NCBI GenBank assembly: GCA_950295325.1
Contig: OX485803.1
Coordinates: 63,379,554-63,443,553 of the forward strand
From: Polytrichum commune
Lineage: Eukaryota; Streptophyta; Polytrichopsida; Polytrichales; Polytrichaceae
Direction of reading: 5' to 3'
Length of the DNA: 64,000 nt
Part shown: in pieces, positions 57,086 to 63,337 of the stretch
Position numbering within the stretch: position 1 is the first letter of the stretch
Layout of the letters: every line of letters starts with the position of its first letter
Notes under the pieces: model-generated
Told to the model about the DNA's origin: nothing
What the model saw: the letters and a program-made list of their open reading frames with translations, nothing else
The model's database searches: none
Program-made: the position numbers and the translations under genes

Positions 57086-57599
57086 CACATGCAATTGTTG
57101 GGCAATCACGGAGAAAGTAATTATGAGAATCAATTTCAATGGATCAATCCGGACAGGATGGTCCAATACACTCTTTTATCTTCATGGTTGAGGACGCTTC
57201 TATTGAAGCTCATTGAAGGGGTGGTTGAGGCTTTATTTAAGTTTTCAAAAAAGTCTGAACCCCTCCCCCCCCCCCCCCTTGCATCCACTTTGGTGTTTCT
57301 CTTTTTCAAAGTGTAGCCAAGGTTGGCACATAATAATACCTCTCACCACCACACACCTTTGATGACTTGAAGGTTCTAAAATGGGACTCTTTGTATCATC
57401 AATTTGTCTTCTAAGATATAGTTGCTGAATAATCTTATAATCTTCAAAAACCGATTGTAAACTTTCATGAATGGTTCTATCACTACAACAGATGGGGTAT
57501 TTTGTGACTAGGGAAATGTGACTGGGGATGATTGGTGACTATAGGATGTCACATTTGGCCAGACCTTGACCTTTGGGGGGGGGGGGGGACGGAATTCGA

Positions 57600-59246
57600 A
57601 AATATGGACCATTAAAAATGGACATAAAAAATAGGGTCCGCTCTATTGTGAATATGAACATGCAAGCATTAAAGGTCTTTAAGGAATCCCATCATGAGAT
57701 ACACATACTTTCGAATATGGAAGGTCATACAGACATGTCCTCCTCTTCACTCCATGTTCGTGTACCGGGTCTAGTGTCTGTCCACCTTGGTTTGCGCAGT
57801 GGTTTTTCATCCACTTTTGTCGGTCATTCGCAAATCGCAGTTGCTCTCGACCACTCATCCTTCTTGGTGGTGGTCTCACTTCGGACCGCCCATAAAAAAT
57901 GGACCTCTGTCATCTCCATTGGTGGGTTGTTGGCAATTGTCGTCTATTCCCAAGGTAAATATTATTTTTCAACGCTTTGGAACGCCGTGTTGTCACGTTG
58001 AGACCACACACACGACAAGCCCTATGTTCTTTTGTTATTTGGCCAGAAATCAATCCGTACGCTGGGAAGTCATTCACTATCCACAAAAGCATGCCATGTA
58101 GCTTTAATGTTTTCTCTTTGGAGTTTCGTTGTGATCCGTTGAAGTAGTCGATCCCTTTCCATAGCTCTTGGAGCTCCTCAATCAATGGTGCCAGGTACAT
58201 ATCCACGTTCTAGTCTATTACACTTTCTTTTCCTGGTATGATTAGCGCGAGCATCATGAAGAAGTTTTGGTCACTAACCAAGGGGGAAGATTGTAGTTGA
58301 GCATGACCACGGGCCAAGTAGAGTGGCTGAGACTTTGGTTCCTAAATGGATTCACGCCATCCAGTGCAAGGCCAAGCCTAACGATCCGTTCCTCTTTCGC
58401 AAACCACGGCCACCTATTATTTACAATGGTCCCAAGCCTTTGATTCCACAACAAACCTCATCACCTTACCTCACTTTTCCCGCCTACATGTCACTTCATG
58501 AGCTTCGCCAACCGTGTGCAGCTATACATTCTTTGCAAACAAGGAATCAAAAGAAAATATCTTTAAACTTTGATAGGAATTGTTTTGGAGTTATCTATGT
58601 ACCGTGATTTGTGGCATGTTGGATACTCCATTGCATCATCCAATTCTTTCTGAAACAAACAACATCCACCTCTACATGCATGTATTGAGTTGTAGGACAA
58701 CCCCAACTTCATCAACAAACATTTCGCCTAGTAAAATGATTTCAGTAGTGTGTTGACCTTAGATAAAATTGTCTCCTTCAACAACTTCAACAACTCATCC
58801 TTAAAGTTGTTAGGTACGGCAAAGGTGGTACAACACACCAATAGCATGAGTGTTGATGTGAGACGGTTCGAAGAGCTTCCTGGATAAAGTGGAGTTCCTA
58901 CTTCGCATAAAAAGATCTCGGGGTTTATGCTAGTGGGGTCCTTGATGTTCATGGTACTCCCTCTTGTTTCCATGGGGTCATTTTCTCCCTCGCCTTCCTC
59001 ATCGCTACCTTCATTGTCATTCATTGGGAAACCATCCTCCCCTCTAGGGTCTTCAACCACTGCATCTTCATCCCCGTCATGTATGGTGGTTTCGGTTTCG
59101 TGACCGTCAAAATTTATATTGTCATACTTGTTGAAACATTCTGCCACCATACGTAGAACCTCGACTTCTCCATCTTGTCCATCGTTCGAGATGGGCTTAG
59201 TGTGTATCTGCCTTGCATGACCATTTCTTGGTGCATGGGAGAGCAA
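57600..59246 (-). pseudogene. CACTA transposase (Transposase_21/TNP2), broken
   Basis: Pieces in family order on the minus strand. 58728-59246 is an acidic N-terminal part leading to GTPLYPGSS, then KDELLKLLKE and LLKSFY. Around 58600 a diverged Cys region follows. 58254-58454 has RLGLALDGVNPF, STWPVVMLNYNLPPW. 57910-58206 has MYLAPLIEELQELWKGIDYF, LHGMLLWIVNDFPAYG and RACRVCG. 57679-57879 has GVKRRTCLYDLPY. These match the En/Spm-type transposase that cuts and moves CACTA elements. Stops and frameshifts between pieces make it a pseudogene. Confidence 0.85.
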
Positions 59247-59668
59247 GTCAATTGAGTTGTACTTGTCCTGCCATTTTCATGGGAATTTTTTTTGGGAATC
59301 AATATGTGAGGCCAAACCACCCACCCTTAAGTGTTCTAGTCCGGGTGAGGGAATGAATATCACATTCATGTTTCCACAACTCCATTTGACCAAACTCGTG
59401 AGAACCCATAACATTTCCCATCAATTAGTGCACACCAATCCATTCCACGATAGTATTACAAGCGTTGACAAACGCTCTTCTCTATTATCACAATCATAAC
59501 CTCGTGTTCTCCTATCTTGCTAATGAACTAATTATCTAAAGTCATATTAAGTAACAACCTAATTAACTAACTCTCACCGAGTCTAATGTAGCACCACGGG
59601 ATCCCCCTTTATATCATTACAGTTCTCCCTTAGTCATCTACCCAAATCACTCAAGGCCTAGCATTAAA

Positions 59669-59960
59669 GTAAGCCGAGAGGCCTCGAAACTGTAAGCCCA
59701 GCGGCCTCCACAACAGTAAGCTAGTAGCCTCGAACTGTAAGTCCAGCAGCCTCCACAACAGTAAGCCGCAACCTCCAAACTGTAAGCCCAGCGGCCTCCC
59801 AACAGTAAGCCCGCAGCCTCCAAACTGTAAGCCCAGCAGCCTCGAACTGTAAGCCCAGCGGCCTCCACACAGTAAGCTAGTAACCTCGAACTGTAAGCCC
59901 AACGGCCTCCACAACAGTAAGCCCGCAGCTCCCAACAGTAAGCTAGTAGCCTCGAAACTA
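59669..59960 (+). repeat. Minisatellite, 13 units of 21-24 bp
   Basis: Units begin GTAAGCC and follow GTAAGCCCAGCGGCCTCC, alternating between endings CTCGAACT and CCACAACA. Each unit starts with a near-consensus plant 5' splice site (ACA or ACT, then GTAAGC) on the plus strand. On the minus strand it reads as a Gly/Trp/Tyr-rich open frame that is a by-product of the repeat. Confidence 0.85.
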
Positions 59961-60103
59961 ATCCCCACTAATCCTCTACCTAATTCCACTAATTACCCAA
60001 AACCCCCTACCTAATCTTCCTACCTAATTCCACTAATTTCCCTAATACCCCCTTACTAATTACACACTTTTTTCTAGCTCTAAGAGCTCAAAATCCTATA
60101 GAG

Positions 60104-60188
60104 GAGGGGGAGAGAGAGAGAGAGGAAGGAGAGGAGGAAGAGAGAATGAAGAGAGGAATGAAGAGAGGAGAGGAGGAGGAGGAGAGGG
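60104..60188 (+). repeat. GA-rich tract
   Basis: This is an 85-bp almost pure purine run of GAG/GA repeats, low complexity, possibly triplex-forming. It lies between the minisatellite and the SET-like frame. Confidence 0.7.
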
Positions 60189-60843
60189 CACCCAAGACCA
60201 CAAGCCCCTTAACCTTCTCCTACTTAGTAGAACCTTATCCTATCCACTAAATCCTCACCCTCTAAACCAACAAGAGCATGTTCTAATTCAAACATTTAAA
60301 TCCAAGGACCTTCCCCTTGCTTCATCAAATACTACACACTCAAACAAAACACTCCCTAATGTCACTAAGCTTCTAATTAACTACACAAAATAGGCTTAAA
60401 GCCTAAAACATAAACCATACCAAGCCTCACTCTTTTTATACTTTTGATTGTTTCAATAACACTCCAAATGCAATTCTAATTAAATTCTAAACATAAAACC
60501 AATATGGGCACTCATTTTGGGCTCATACAATACGTGTCACAAACGCCGGTACACAAATTCTGTGAACATGGAACCCTCTCCACCATGGACGTGTCACGTG
60601 GTAGGACTCCCATACAACACACATATACAAACAATAGATGTGGAAAACTTGTCACAATCCACCTACACATGTATGCCATGGCCATGATTTTTTATACAAA
60701 ATTTTCGTTTTGGCATCCAAGTTTGCGCCATATATTTTTTTACAAATTATATCTTGTCAATAAAAAACATGACTTGGTGTAGTCATATTAGAGAACACAT
60801 GACGGAGTGTAGTCATTCCATGGATGGATTGTTGGATGTCAGC

Positions 60844-61314
60844 CTACAACACGGTGTGCGGGTTCAGCAAGTAGTGTGCATACAATTCTTCTCCGACCAA
60901 AATGTCCTTTATCGCTATGGTAATTACATATCCCCATTTCCATTTGTTCCATGGTTTGGGCAACATGCAAAATTCCCACACCACATTTCCTATTTCTTTG
61001 CGCTCTATGGAACTATTTATGAAGCCACCGACATTCCCTTTCATTACATCTCCGTCGATGTACAAGTCCGACTCAGCTTGCATTGCATATGACTTCACTC
61101 GAAGTTGGGCCTTGCTCAAAGTTTTGTATTCTGGCAAGGTGTATTGTGGTCCTACAATGGGAAGTAGTTCCTCTCCGTCTTTGGCGAGTTGGAGTGCAAA
61201 TAGACCCCAACCCATGAATGAAAAGGTGGACATCCTTACTTCCCATTCTCTGTTCCAATACGAAAATTGTGTTACTTTTAGGATGGGCCTGTCACACCAC
61301 TGTGCATCATACAC
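60844..61314 (-). pseudogene. SET-domain-like frame in the transposon region
   Basis: This 156-codon frame has the order of a SET methyltransferase domain: MGWGLFALQ with GEELLPIVG, then QAESDLYIDGDVMKGNVGG, FINSS, NVVWEF, WGYVITIAIKDI and GEELYAHY. SET domains add methyl groups to lysine, usually on histones. The usual FINHSC motif reads FINSS, so the histidine and cysteine are missing, while the C-terminal tyrosine (YAHY) is present. No pre-SET Cys cluster or histone-reader domain is seen. Upstream minus-strand sequence (61315-61776) has stops. It is likely part of a transposon-carried family, now degenerate. Confidence 0.6.
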
Positions 61315-62073
61315 GTCAAACCGCCACCTCTACAATGCTCGTACTCTTGTGGGCGTTGTGTTCAGCATGGCGTGTGTTGAAGATTGGTATCTTCTTAGAA
61401 AGATTCTCAAGGATGTCATACATGCAGCTTTTACAATGGGTCTCCATCGGGCCTACAAAATTCATTTACACAAAGATTTAAACTCACCCAAGGCAAGACC
61501 ACCCGCTTATGCTCATTCAATAGTGGTTTGTTGGAATTTCTTACCAGGATAGAGGATGTAAATACAAGGTCCTTTCTTTTTTGTTGCGAAGATGCTTTCG
61601 AATTGTGGTTCAATCGAGGACCTTCCCTTCCGCACATTCCATGCATGGACATGGGTACTTGGATAATCGCATGGTGTCTGCTTGGATCTCTTCTTCTTGC
61701 CATAACTGTAGATGCTTCAAGCTTTGGAACTCCCCTTCTACCATTTTGTGCAGTGCGCGGTATATGTTTTGGGTGAAATTTTGATATGGGAATACCTTAC
61801 AAGCAAGGACTGCTCACATGCACACAGTCCCATATCTAGGGTGATACACATGAAAGGGGAGCCATATAACCCGGGGCAGTCATATAACTGTAAGAGGACA
61901 CATATGACTGGAGGGAGCCCCCAGTGGGTTTAGCTCTCCAATCTAGCTAGCAATCAACAATTGTGCGTCATTCCAAATCATCACTTCACATTTTGTTTTA
62001 GCAATTGAACATAAAGTGGTCACCATATTCCTAAAAAATGAATGTTTTCTTATTAATTTTCTTTCCTTCTCAC

Positions 62074-63337
62074 CACTAGTAGAAAACTATGACCAGCCTA
62101 ATCTATTGTTGCTAAACGACTACAAAATTTCTTTTTTTGTTTTTCAAGTTTAATTTCAAAATTTTGGGGCGTGTAATATTCCATTGGAAAGGTATTTTCA
62201 AGACCTTTCCAACAGTATATTACATGTCCCAAATTCCTAAAAGTTTAGTCACTAAACCAAAAACAAAATCTGCAGTCGTTTAGCGACTTCAAATTAGGCT
62301 TATCAAAACAACCGCAACCAATTTCAGTTGCTGTCGCAACCCTTGCTAGTCCCCTTAAAAATCTTGCCAATTTCCATTTCTAGCAAAGGTTACGAGTGCT
62401 AACCCTTCGCATACCGCCATGCTAATGGTTAGCTCCTCCTACCCCGGACCTTATAGTTCATAGGAGGGAACCAACCCTCCTACTTTGCTTTTGGGACTCA
62501 CCCCTTAATCAGTAACCAATCCTTAGATGTGGACTTCCATCCATGGAAGTCCAATCTTATGTTGATCATCGCATTGCCGGAGCAACACTACAACAACCCG
62601 AACCATACTAGGCAACTATGGCCTCACAATGGGCCCAAGCCCATGAAGGCCGTGCCGTTCGGCCTCGGATGGGTGAGGCCACACCACCTCACCCATATAA
62701 GCCTCTAGGACTCTACGCGGGGCCCCTACCCCAACGTCAAGAGACCTCTTGTCTCTCTACCAAGAGTTGGGGCCAAGTAGACATTTTCCCTTAGCCGCTG
62801 GGCCTAGAAGCCCCAGTAGCTTCAGACCATCATAACTTCCTTGTATGATGTCTGATTCCAACAACCAACCACTCCATCTACATCTACGCTTCACGTAGAT
62901 GCCGATGGACTCCTCACTTGCCCCATTCGGGCAAGTCTTGAGGAAGTTATGCCTGTTTGAACCTTGGCAGTCCCGGGAATCACTCCCAGGCACTGCTGCA
63001 CCAGGGCGCTGTCCCGGGACAGCGCCCCACTCAAATGGCCATAACTCCTAGCTCACACCTCCGATTGAGGTGTTCTTGAGCATTCTAGAATCATCACGCC
63101 ATGAGCTACTCATAGCTCTTGGCTTTACCCTCATGCCTCCTAGTCTCCGCGGGTGGGAGGCGTTCCCAACGCCCGGGGCCCTCGCCCACACTAGGATCAC
63201 TTGGGCCCTCTCACCAACGGCGCCACAAGTCCCGGGTGTCACTCCGGGGTCCCCCTTGTGCCCATGGTGTTTCGGCCATTCCTCATGGAGAGGTGCGCGA
63301 CAGCTGCAGTTCTTTTTGGCATAGTATTCTACTAGTG
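62074..63337. mobile_element. CACTA-type MITE split by a solo LTR
   Basis: Ends are CACTAGTAGAAAACTATG and, reversed from the right, CACTAGTAGAATACTATG. The inner text matches 54205-54530 (GACCAGCCTAAT, GGGGCGTGTAAT, GGAAAGGTATT, CTTTCCAACA, CTGCAGTCGTTTAG). Without the LTR the element is about 288 bp and also folds as a hairpin. Flanking triplets CAC and TAC differ by one base. Confidence 0.8.
62332..63302. mobile_element. Solo LTR inside a CACTA MITE
   Basis: This 971-bp GC-rich block begins TGTCGC and ends GCGACA, the short inverted TG...CA ends of an LTR. GTTGC and GCTGC (62327-62331, 63303-63307) are a 5-bp target duplication with one change. A TATA-like CCCATATAAGCC occurs near 62693. 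It contains hairpins, including a 24-bp perfect palindrome at 63004-63027 (half GGGCGCTGTCCC). No internal retrotransposon genes are present, so it arose by LTR-LTR recombination. The orientation was not settled. Confidence 0.7.

Follow-up and report, generated by a model that had tools for sequence, protein, structure and literature searches.

DNA transposons that carry a gene for a SET histone methyltransferase have already been described. In the part of PMC12730594 available to us, HarbingerS elements (Kojima & Jurka 2014, Repbase Reports 14:2243) and MuDR families of the oomycete Phytophthora are cited as carriers of SET genes, and TET/JBP genes are reported in fungal DNA transposons, EnSpm among them. 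Within the CACTA (En/Spm) superfamily, maize En/Spm and soybean Tgmt* are characterized by CACTA termini, a 3-bp target site duplication (TSD), a TNP2 transposase and subterminal repeats; alternatively spliced En/Spm transcripts of 2.5 kb and 5.8 kb lead to TNPA and TNPD, and the tnp2 frame comes from intron 1 of tnpA (accessible part of PMC2613891). The VANC proteins of Arabidopsis VANDAL transposons bind short motifs that are dense in the non-coding parts of these elements, and hypomethylation has been demonstrated (accessible part of PMC5735166). Here we analyse a stretch of 64,000 nucleotides from the moss Polytrichum commune (assembly GCA_950295325.1, contig OX485803.1, positions 63,379,554 to 63,443,553), which as a whole is referred to as the window. 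A preliminary description, made from its letters alone, had placed a SET-like frame beside a TNP2-type transposase relic on the same strand, with a CACTA-type terminus on the outer side, and had suggested that one transposon owned both and used the SET protein for anti-silencing or targeting.

Like HarbingerS and the Phytophthora MuDR families, the moss elements are DNA transposons with a gene for a histone-methyltransferase-like SET protein. Those families, as far as they are described in the source available, belong to other superfamilies, whereas the moss SET resides in CACTA/TNP2 elements, where it forms an exon of the transposase gene that follows a shared first exon; the likeness is one of descriptions, and the transposase found here is TNP2 (PF02992) and not the PIF/Harbinger transposase of HarbingerS. 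The fungal TET/JBP transposons, in the same partial account, likewise contain a chromatin- or DNA-modifying enzyme, but it is a dioxygenase, in fungi, and not a SET protein. SETMAR also joins a SET domain to a transposase, but it is one host gene containing a fused mariner relic and not a mobile family, whereas the moss SET is part of element families.

En/Spm and Tgmt* share with the moss elements the CACTA termini, 3-bp TSD, TNP2 and subterminal repeats. Their spliced transcripts give a transposase and a DNA-binding accessory protein, whereas alternative splicing in the moss elements is a prediction, and the accessible part of PMC2613891 mentions no SET domain. The arrangement also differs, with the tnp2 frame in tnpA intron 1 in En/Spm, as far as that part tells, and the SET exon between a finger exon and TNP2 in the moss. 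The VANC systems resemble the moss elements in layout: a transposon protein is combined with dense short non-coding motifs, and a similar layout is observed in one moss family (F1), where binding is putative, but VANDAL is a MuDR-type element and the moss elements are CACTA. VANC is not known to be a SET protein, and anti-silencing by plant transposons is known mainly from VANDAL/VANC.

No report of a SET-bearing CACTA element was found in the literature covered, outside of which lie most subscription papers and all bioRxiv preprints; PMC4158355, a paper about CACTA transposases, does not use the words SET domain in its main text, and no such element was found in the available parts of PMC12730594 and PMC8616336. 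What appears new here, SET-bearing DNA transposons being already known, is the CACTA carrier with a SET exon in its transposase gene. We assign a probability of roughly 0.58 to a reading in which the SET frame belongs, as an integral exon, to a CACTA (En/Spm) lineage whose transposase gene gives two spliced products, one of them a self-targeted, anti-silencing finger-SET protein.

Complete elements, families and gene structure

The genome (408 Mb in 64 contigs) was searched with the SET protein of the window, and at least 150 matches were identified, itself included, a lower bound because 150 of 198 candidates were scored; many matches are fragments or contain stops. Contig C8 of this genome carries psaA and psaB and looks like plastid DNA; its PsaB scores highest against 8htu, 6l35 and 7ksq (1705-1701 bits), which are moss (Physcomitrium) structures, followed by one chain at 1667 bits and others from 1630 bits downwards, and the seven large contigs would suit a polytrichaceous moss (n = 7). 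Four copies (A, B, C and D) were read together with their surroundings. Copies A, B and D measure 15786, 14058 and 15263 bp, respectively, with CACTACAACAGATTGGGTATTTT at one end and its inverted form at the other; they contain both SET and TNP2 inside the termini, and are flanked by perfect 3-bp TSDs in all three cases (CAA, GTG and ATT). The 5' end of copy C was not found in the stretch read. An inverted repeat, CACTACAA[C/T]AGATTGGGTATTTT, was observed at both ends of A, B and D and is perfect over 23, 8 and 25 bp. Four features of the CACTA (En/Spm) superfamily are present, namely CACTA terminal inverted repeats (TIRs), a 3-bp TSD, TNP2 (PF02992) and a subterminal repeated motif; the transposase of element D matches PF02992 with an expectation value (E) of 7.3e-74 and additionally DUF4218 (2.9e-21). 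With SET inside matching termini and perfect TSDs, its ownership by the same element as TNP2, earlier only suggested, is established at the level of sequence.

The family terminus pattern has 114 matches in the genome with up to two mismatches, among them the outer terminus proposed for the window, and a reversed control pattern has none. Among 100 termini listed, adjacent inward-facing pairs no more than 35 kb apart define 33 intervals, of which 25 contain SET and TNP2, one SET only, one TNP2 only, and six neither, so that the SET frame does recur between termini, as the preliminary description had proposed to check genome-wide. The six short intervals without either gene (5.8-7.5 kb) look like internally deleted copies.

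The association was also counted from the transposase side, in 132 listed TNP2 matches, for which 130 out of 695 candidates had been scored and two loci gave two rows each. SET lies less than 3 kb upstream on the same strand in 79 of the 132, and in none downstream or on the opposite strand, against 0.07 expected from random placement. Up to 6 kb upstream on the same strand, SET accompanies 38 of 41 TNP2 matches at 85-100% identity, 20 of 43 at 62-67%, 9 of 21 at 57-61%, 12 of 15 at 53-56% and none of 12 at 50-52%. The presence of SET in other copies is not universal: among the 41 close TNP2 matches, three lack a match to SET. SET is carried by five diverged TNP2 families (F1-F5). Twelve TNP2 stretches without a SET match, from more distant families, were read as well, and remnants of the SET exon were recognized in four of them, one weak (L064, E 0.44).

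In the TNP2 tree, the SET-less families N64 and N59 group with the SET-bearing F3 (support 100/99). This placement weakens the view that N64 and N59 are ancestrally SET-less, and because of it a loss of SET in these two families appears likelier than a gain in F3. With F5 added, the SET label requires four changes, at least two of them forced by well-supported branches; the deep forks are unsure, including the place of N51 and F5. Scans of viral_contigs and genome_contigs with alignment A1 gave 91 and 35 pattern stretches, respectively, but none was confirmed as a relative; at this sensitivity, there was accordingly no sign of a donor among viruses or prokaryotes.

Family F5 displays the order finger exon, 326-aa SET frame and TNP2 exons. 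Two of its copies, on different contigs, are identical across the SET frame and 100% identical over 3.8 kb downstream, while a third reaches 96-97% in the SET frame and 98-99% downstream; because the two copies on different contigs are essentially identical, F5 has apparently been mobile or duplicated recently. The 14.7 kb read for F5 revealed no pair of termini. Loci of this family are L058/L074 (G000:C3:52944726-52953400) and G000:C5:1789795-1796675.

Across these elements, the SET exon is preceded by a short zinc-finger-like exon (CPC-x2-C...HL motif) and followed by TNP2, and ends at its own stop. In the SET-less family N51, finger and TNP2 form one open frame of 606 aa, and the finger matches Transpos_assoc (E 6.5e-9). 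Candidate splice sites were counted in 41 copies belonging to families F1-F4, with the window copy assigned to F1. The bases after the last finger residue are GT in 36 of 36 copies aligned that far (GTGAGT or GTAAGT in 25, GTATGC/T in six F3 copies), AG precedes the SET exon in 36 of the 39 copies aligned from its first residue, and 33 copies have both. The predicted finger donor and SET acceptor are in phase 0 and occupy the same place in four families, with an intron of 88-117 bp between them (256 bp in two F2 copies). In one copy per family, the SET frame was found to end at NPHTAL-TAG (F1), SVN-TAA (F2), PLN-TGA (F3) and VNF-TGA (F4); no shared splice donor was seen just after the SET domain in these four families, and the F5 frame also stops just after the domain. 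A plausible phase-0 acceptor is present at the TNP2 exon in F1, F2, F4, N64 and N59. No family-shared Met precedes the R-M-V-x-E-C-F stretch of this exon, which is not found in copy B and whose Met is internal in N51. The simple reading of this structure is that the finger exon would be spliced either to SET or to TNP2.

Other features of the family were observed in passing. Four paired-terminus intervals of near-uniform length (7.0-7.5 kb; C3:45035958-45043158, C3:48730502-48737563, C4:12776107-12783570 and C6:39029013-39036030) have the same termini and no SET or TNP2 match, and are perhaps an amplified non-autonomous form. The left halves of A, B and D (e.g. L013, L014 and L016) contain divergent minus-strand open frames common to the copies; three pieces were tried and gave no convincing Pfam match, and these frames possibly represent a second gene (TNPA-like, or open reading frame 2, ORF2).

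The SET domain, its selection and its proposed role

The Pfam profile search matched both SET and Transposase_21 in the window, where the SET frame scores 32.5 bits against a cut-off of 22.4 and displays the motif order GWGLFA, FINSS, GEELYAHY, as originally described. Positions 1-104 of the 105 in PF00856 are covered in F1 (2.9e-9), F2 (4.5e-10), the window (1.3e-7) and genomic copies of F3 (2.1e-6) and F4 (2.4e-8); F5 matches positions 36-104 only (1.1e-4), and a truncated F3 copy falls below the cut-off (0.031). In an alignment of nine exons, both glycines of G-x-G (G81 and G83) are invariant in 9 of 9 rows, as are an N-V-x-W stretch and the first residue (N) of NHxC, and the tyrosine of GEEL...Y is kept in all eight rows reaching that position. 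The best sequence matches in the PDB are EZH2, KMT2A, 8sr6, LegAS4 and ASH1L (E 8.7e-6 to about 7e-5), and SETD2, G9a (EHMT2) and SUV39H2 are also among the neighbours. A single-sequence fold prediction of the window SET frame was of low confidence (predicted local distance difference test, pLDDT, 34.9).

Selection was estimated from 27 uninterrupted SET exons (8 F1, 10 F2, 2 F3 and 7 F4) out of 47 copies gathered; the window copy, six copies of group X and 13 with an interrupted exon or no start found were dropped. The one-ratio omega (nonsynonymous to synonymous rate, dN/dS) is 0.263, a value that may be lowered by the restriction to uninterrupted copies, which drops pseudogenes. The log-likelihood is -4900.9 versus -5033.7 with omega fixed at 1 (kappa 2.0, both on one protein tree). 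Pairwise median dN/dS is 0.16 in F2 at a synonymous divergence (dS) of 0.65, 0.41 in F1 at dS 0.06 and 0.26 in F3, from a single pair. Synonymous sites are saturated in 226 of the 256 between-family pairs. These rates indicate that intact SET exons are under purifying selection in four families.

The complete elements are also rich in a short repeated motif. Among hexamers, ATGACT/AGTCAT ranks first or second by enrichment in D and A, with 93 copies in D versus 11.0 expected and 92 in A versus 10.7; B has 81 copies, the expectation for the three elements being 7-11, and the flanks of A, B and D contain just 4, 4 and 5 in 7.4-8.2 kb. In D, 87 of the 93 copies are located outside the right-half coding exons. 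The extended form TATGACT/AGTCATA was observed near both ends, upstream of the finger exon and dispersed inside. A fragment of F4 carries another repeated motif, CAAGGGTTTGAG (about 10 copies), as well as six GCAAGGGT sites at 1878-2283, 5' of the finger exon, and no comparably strong motif was observed in the part of F2 that was read.

Taken as an integral exon of the element, SET would belong to one gene that begins with the finger exon, continues with the SET exon, which ends at its own stop, and then has the TNP2 exons. Alternative splicing would produce a finger-TNP2 transposase, with the SET exon skipped, and a finger-SET protein ending at the SET stop. The shared finger may guide the latter to the element's own DNA, perhaps to the repeated non-coding motifs, where it could methylate lysines of histones or of the transposase at its own copies. 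These copies would stay transcribable or able to move, an anti-silencing role similar to that of VANC proteins, and the use of SET for anti-silencing or targeting, as first put forward, is plausible. A broader version is held more tentatively, and we regard it as possible but somewhat doubtful: an old moss CACTA lineage would have made a self-targeted chromatin writer from part of the transposase gene, with an alternative terminal exon linking the DNA-recognition finger of the transposase to a SET methyltransferase, and each family would open its own chromatin through motif arrays dispersed in the element.

Several observations weigh against this reading. The NHxC motif is absent, with N-S-S/T/F in nine rows in which the first N only is kept (further F3 copies read N-N-S), and no possible post-SET follows the domain, so that SET activity could be lost or altered. 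Because the PDB matches are weak and spread across enzymes, neither the target lysine nor an activating or repressive mark can be read from them. Many copies are broken (20 of 47 were not usable as intact exons), and within F4 the dN/dS is 0.83 at dS 0.06, in young, drifting copies. SET is absent in the related TNP2 families N51, N64 and N59, which means that transposition as such does not require it, and 8 of the 12 SET-unmatched TNP2 stretches read show no SET remnant. The binding of the finger to ATGACT is a guess, and the motif is enriched about 3-fold both in a fragment of F3 (20 vs 6.3) and in the SET-less N51 (19 vs 6.2); it is thus not tied to SET, which lowers our confidence. In the SET families, and also in N64 and F5, the finger falls below the Transpos_assoc cut-off (E 8.6e-5-0.004), and in F1 and F2 it exceeds the Pfam U-box cut-off (23-25 bits; e.g. 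L012:2151-2348). The U-box match recurs weakly in F3 and N64; it was set aside as probably due to chance, given the Transpos_assoc match of the homologous N51 finger.

Other explanations differ in what the SET protein does or how it is made. Plant hosts silence transposons through methylation of histone H3 lysine 9 (H3K9me2) and of DNA. An element-owned finger-SET protein could instead write a repressive or integrative mark, placing heterochromatin on new copies, limiting copy number or marking integration, and the presence of H3K27 and H3K9 enzymes (EZH2, EHMT2, SUV39H2) beside H3K4/H3K36 ones among the PDB neighbours is compatible with this. From general knowledge, however, the element would gain little from such a mark, as host silencing is already present, and the known plant analogue, VANC, lowers silencing (accessible part of PMC5735166); we consider this unlikely, though a serious contender. 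It is distinctly unlikely that the SET is catalytically dead and acts without methylation, as a protein-binding or DNA-architecture module or a TNPA-like accessory. The N-S-S and variant forms of NHxC and the missing post-SET would fit such a module, but families with saturated synonymous sites have all retained the glycines of the S-adenosylmethionine (AdoMet) loop together with the asparagine and the tyrosine. In addition, the PDB entry 8sr6, named eukaryotic huntingtin interacting protein B, which we take to be the active enzyme Legionella RomA, reads INFSD at the same place, so a missing NHxC is no proof of inactivity.

Finger, SET and TNP2 are found in order on one strand, and the finger donor and the SET and TNP2 acceptors are all in phase 0, which would also suit a single SET-transposase fusion spliced or read through together; the stop just after SET in each of four families, where no shared donor was seen, and the F5 frame ending directly after its domain make this very unlikely. 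Capture of host gene fragments by Pack-CACTA elements is known in plants (PMC8616336, in the part available), and the SET exon could accordingly be a functionless chance capture by transduplication. This is barely credible, given its occurrence in five TNP2 families, its exon position and phase fixed in four, and the omega of 0.26 with frames kept over a saturated synonymous distance.

If the finger-SET protein acts on its own chromatin, a transposon may be marking the chromatin of its own copies, with an arms-race weapon built through alternative splicing of the transposase gene. A DNA-guided transposon SET maintained by selection would then make it possible to ask directly whether a histone mark by itself is able to open a transposon or hold it open. 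There is also a practical consequence for annotation. The genome-wide list comprises 119 Pfam SET matches, of which 90 coincide with matches of the window SET and 29 do not, a rough ratio, as 150 of 155 candidates were scored and exons were counted. Counts of SET-family expansion in such genomes consequently need a filter for transposon SET.

The relic copy in the window and neighbouring sequences

The features of the window copy are presented in Table 1. Both parts of the TNP2 relic match Transposase_21 on the strand of the SET frame, as first noted. The SET frame itself is real, but its extent had been underestimated, as it is only the downstream part of a longer exon. Because this exon contains an in-frame TAG and the finger exon has one stop and a frameshift (donor CTG/GTAAGA), the window copy reads as a dead, decayed relic. 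Its likeness to copies A-D stops near 61.9 kb, and no 5' terminus was found. The spacing between SET and TNP2 is about 1 kb greater than in copy D.

Table 1. Features of the CACTA relic, in window coordinates; a slash marks the intron-exon boundary.
Feature	Position	Strand	Basis or remark
CACTA 3' terminus, read CACTACAACAGATGGGGTATTTTGTGACT on the + strand	57481..57509	-	one mismatch to the family terminus pattern
Transposase_21 piece of TNP2, profile 87-182	57910..58209	-	E 2.7e-22
Transposase_21 piece of TNP2, profile 16-70	58254..58457	-	E 1.4e-20
Acidic N-terminal part, TNP2 exon	58728..59267	-	resembles F1 elements
Candidate phase-0 acceptor of TNP2 exon, aaaatggcag/GACAAG	first exon base 59267	-	
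Tandem array of CAGTAAGCCCAGCGGCCTC-like units between SET and TNP2	59640..59970	.	by eye
SET frame, the part of the SET exon that is still open, at its downstream end and with own stop	60844..61329	-	Pfam SET, E 1.3e-7
Whole SET exon	60844..61452	-	comparison with intact copies
SET exon acceptor, ttttgtag/GCCCGATGG	first exon base 61452	-	homologous exons
In-frame TAG breaking the SET exon	61330-61332	-	read by eye against intact relatives
Predicted intron, 92 bp	61453..61544	-	also 92 bp in 11 F1 copies measured
Decayed finger exon (CPC-x2-C...HL, Transpos_assoc-like)	61545..61744	-	by eye, and Pfam of intact homologues
TATGACT-type repeat remnant, 5' of the finger exon	61840..61910	-	by eye

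Two further observations concern the sequence beyond the relic. Near its truncated end, at 62077-62110, a stretch beginning CACTAGTAGAAAACTATGACC resembles, by eye, a different CACTA-type terminus. Additionally, the stretch at 62331-63308 on the minus strand (about 975 bp) shares 94% identity with an insertion within copy A. This insertion in turn shares 83% identity with sequence next to copy B and has apparent 5-bp duplication flanks in A; the window stretch looks like a separate short mobile element.

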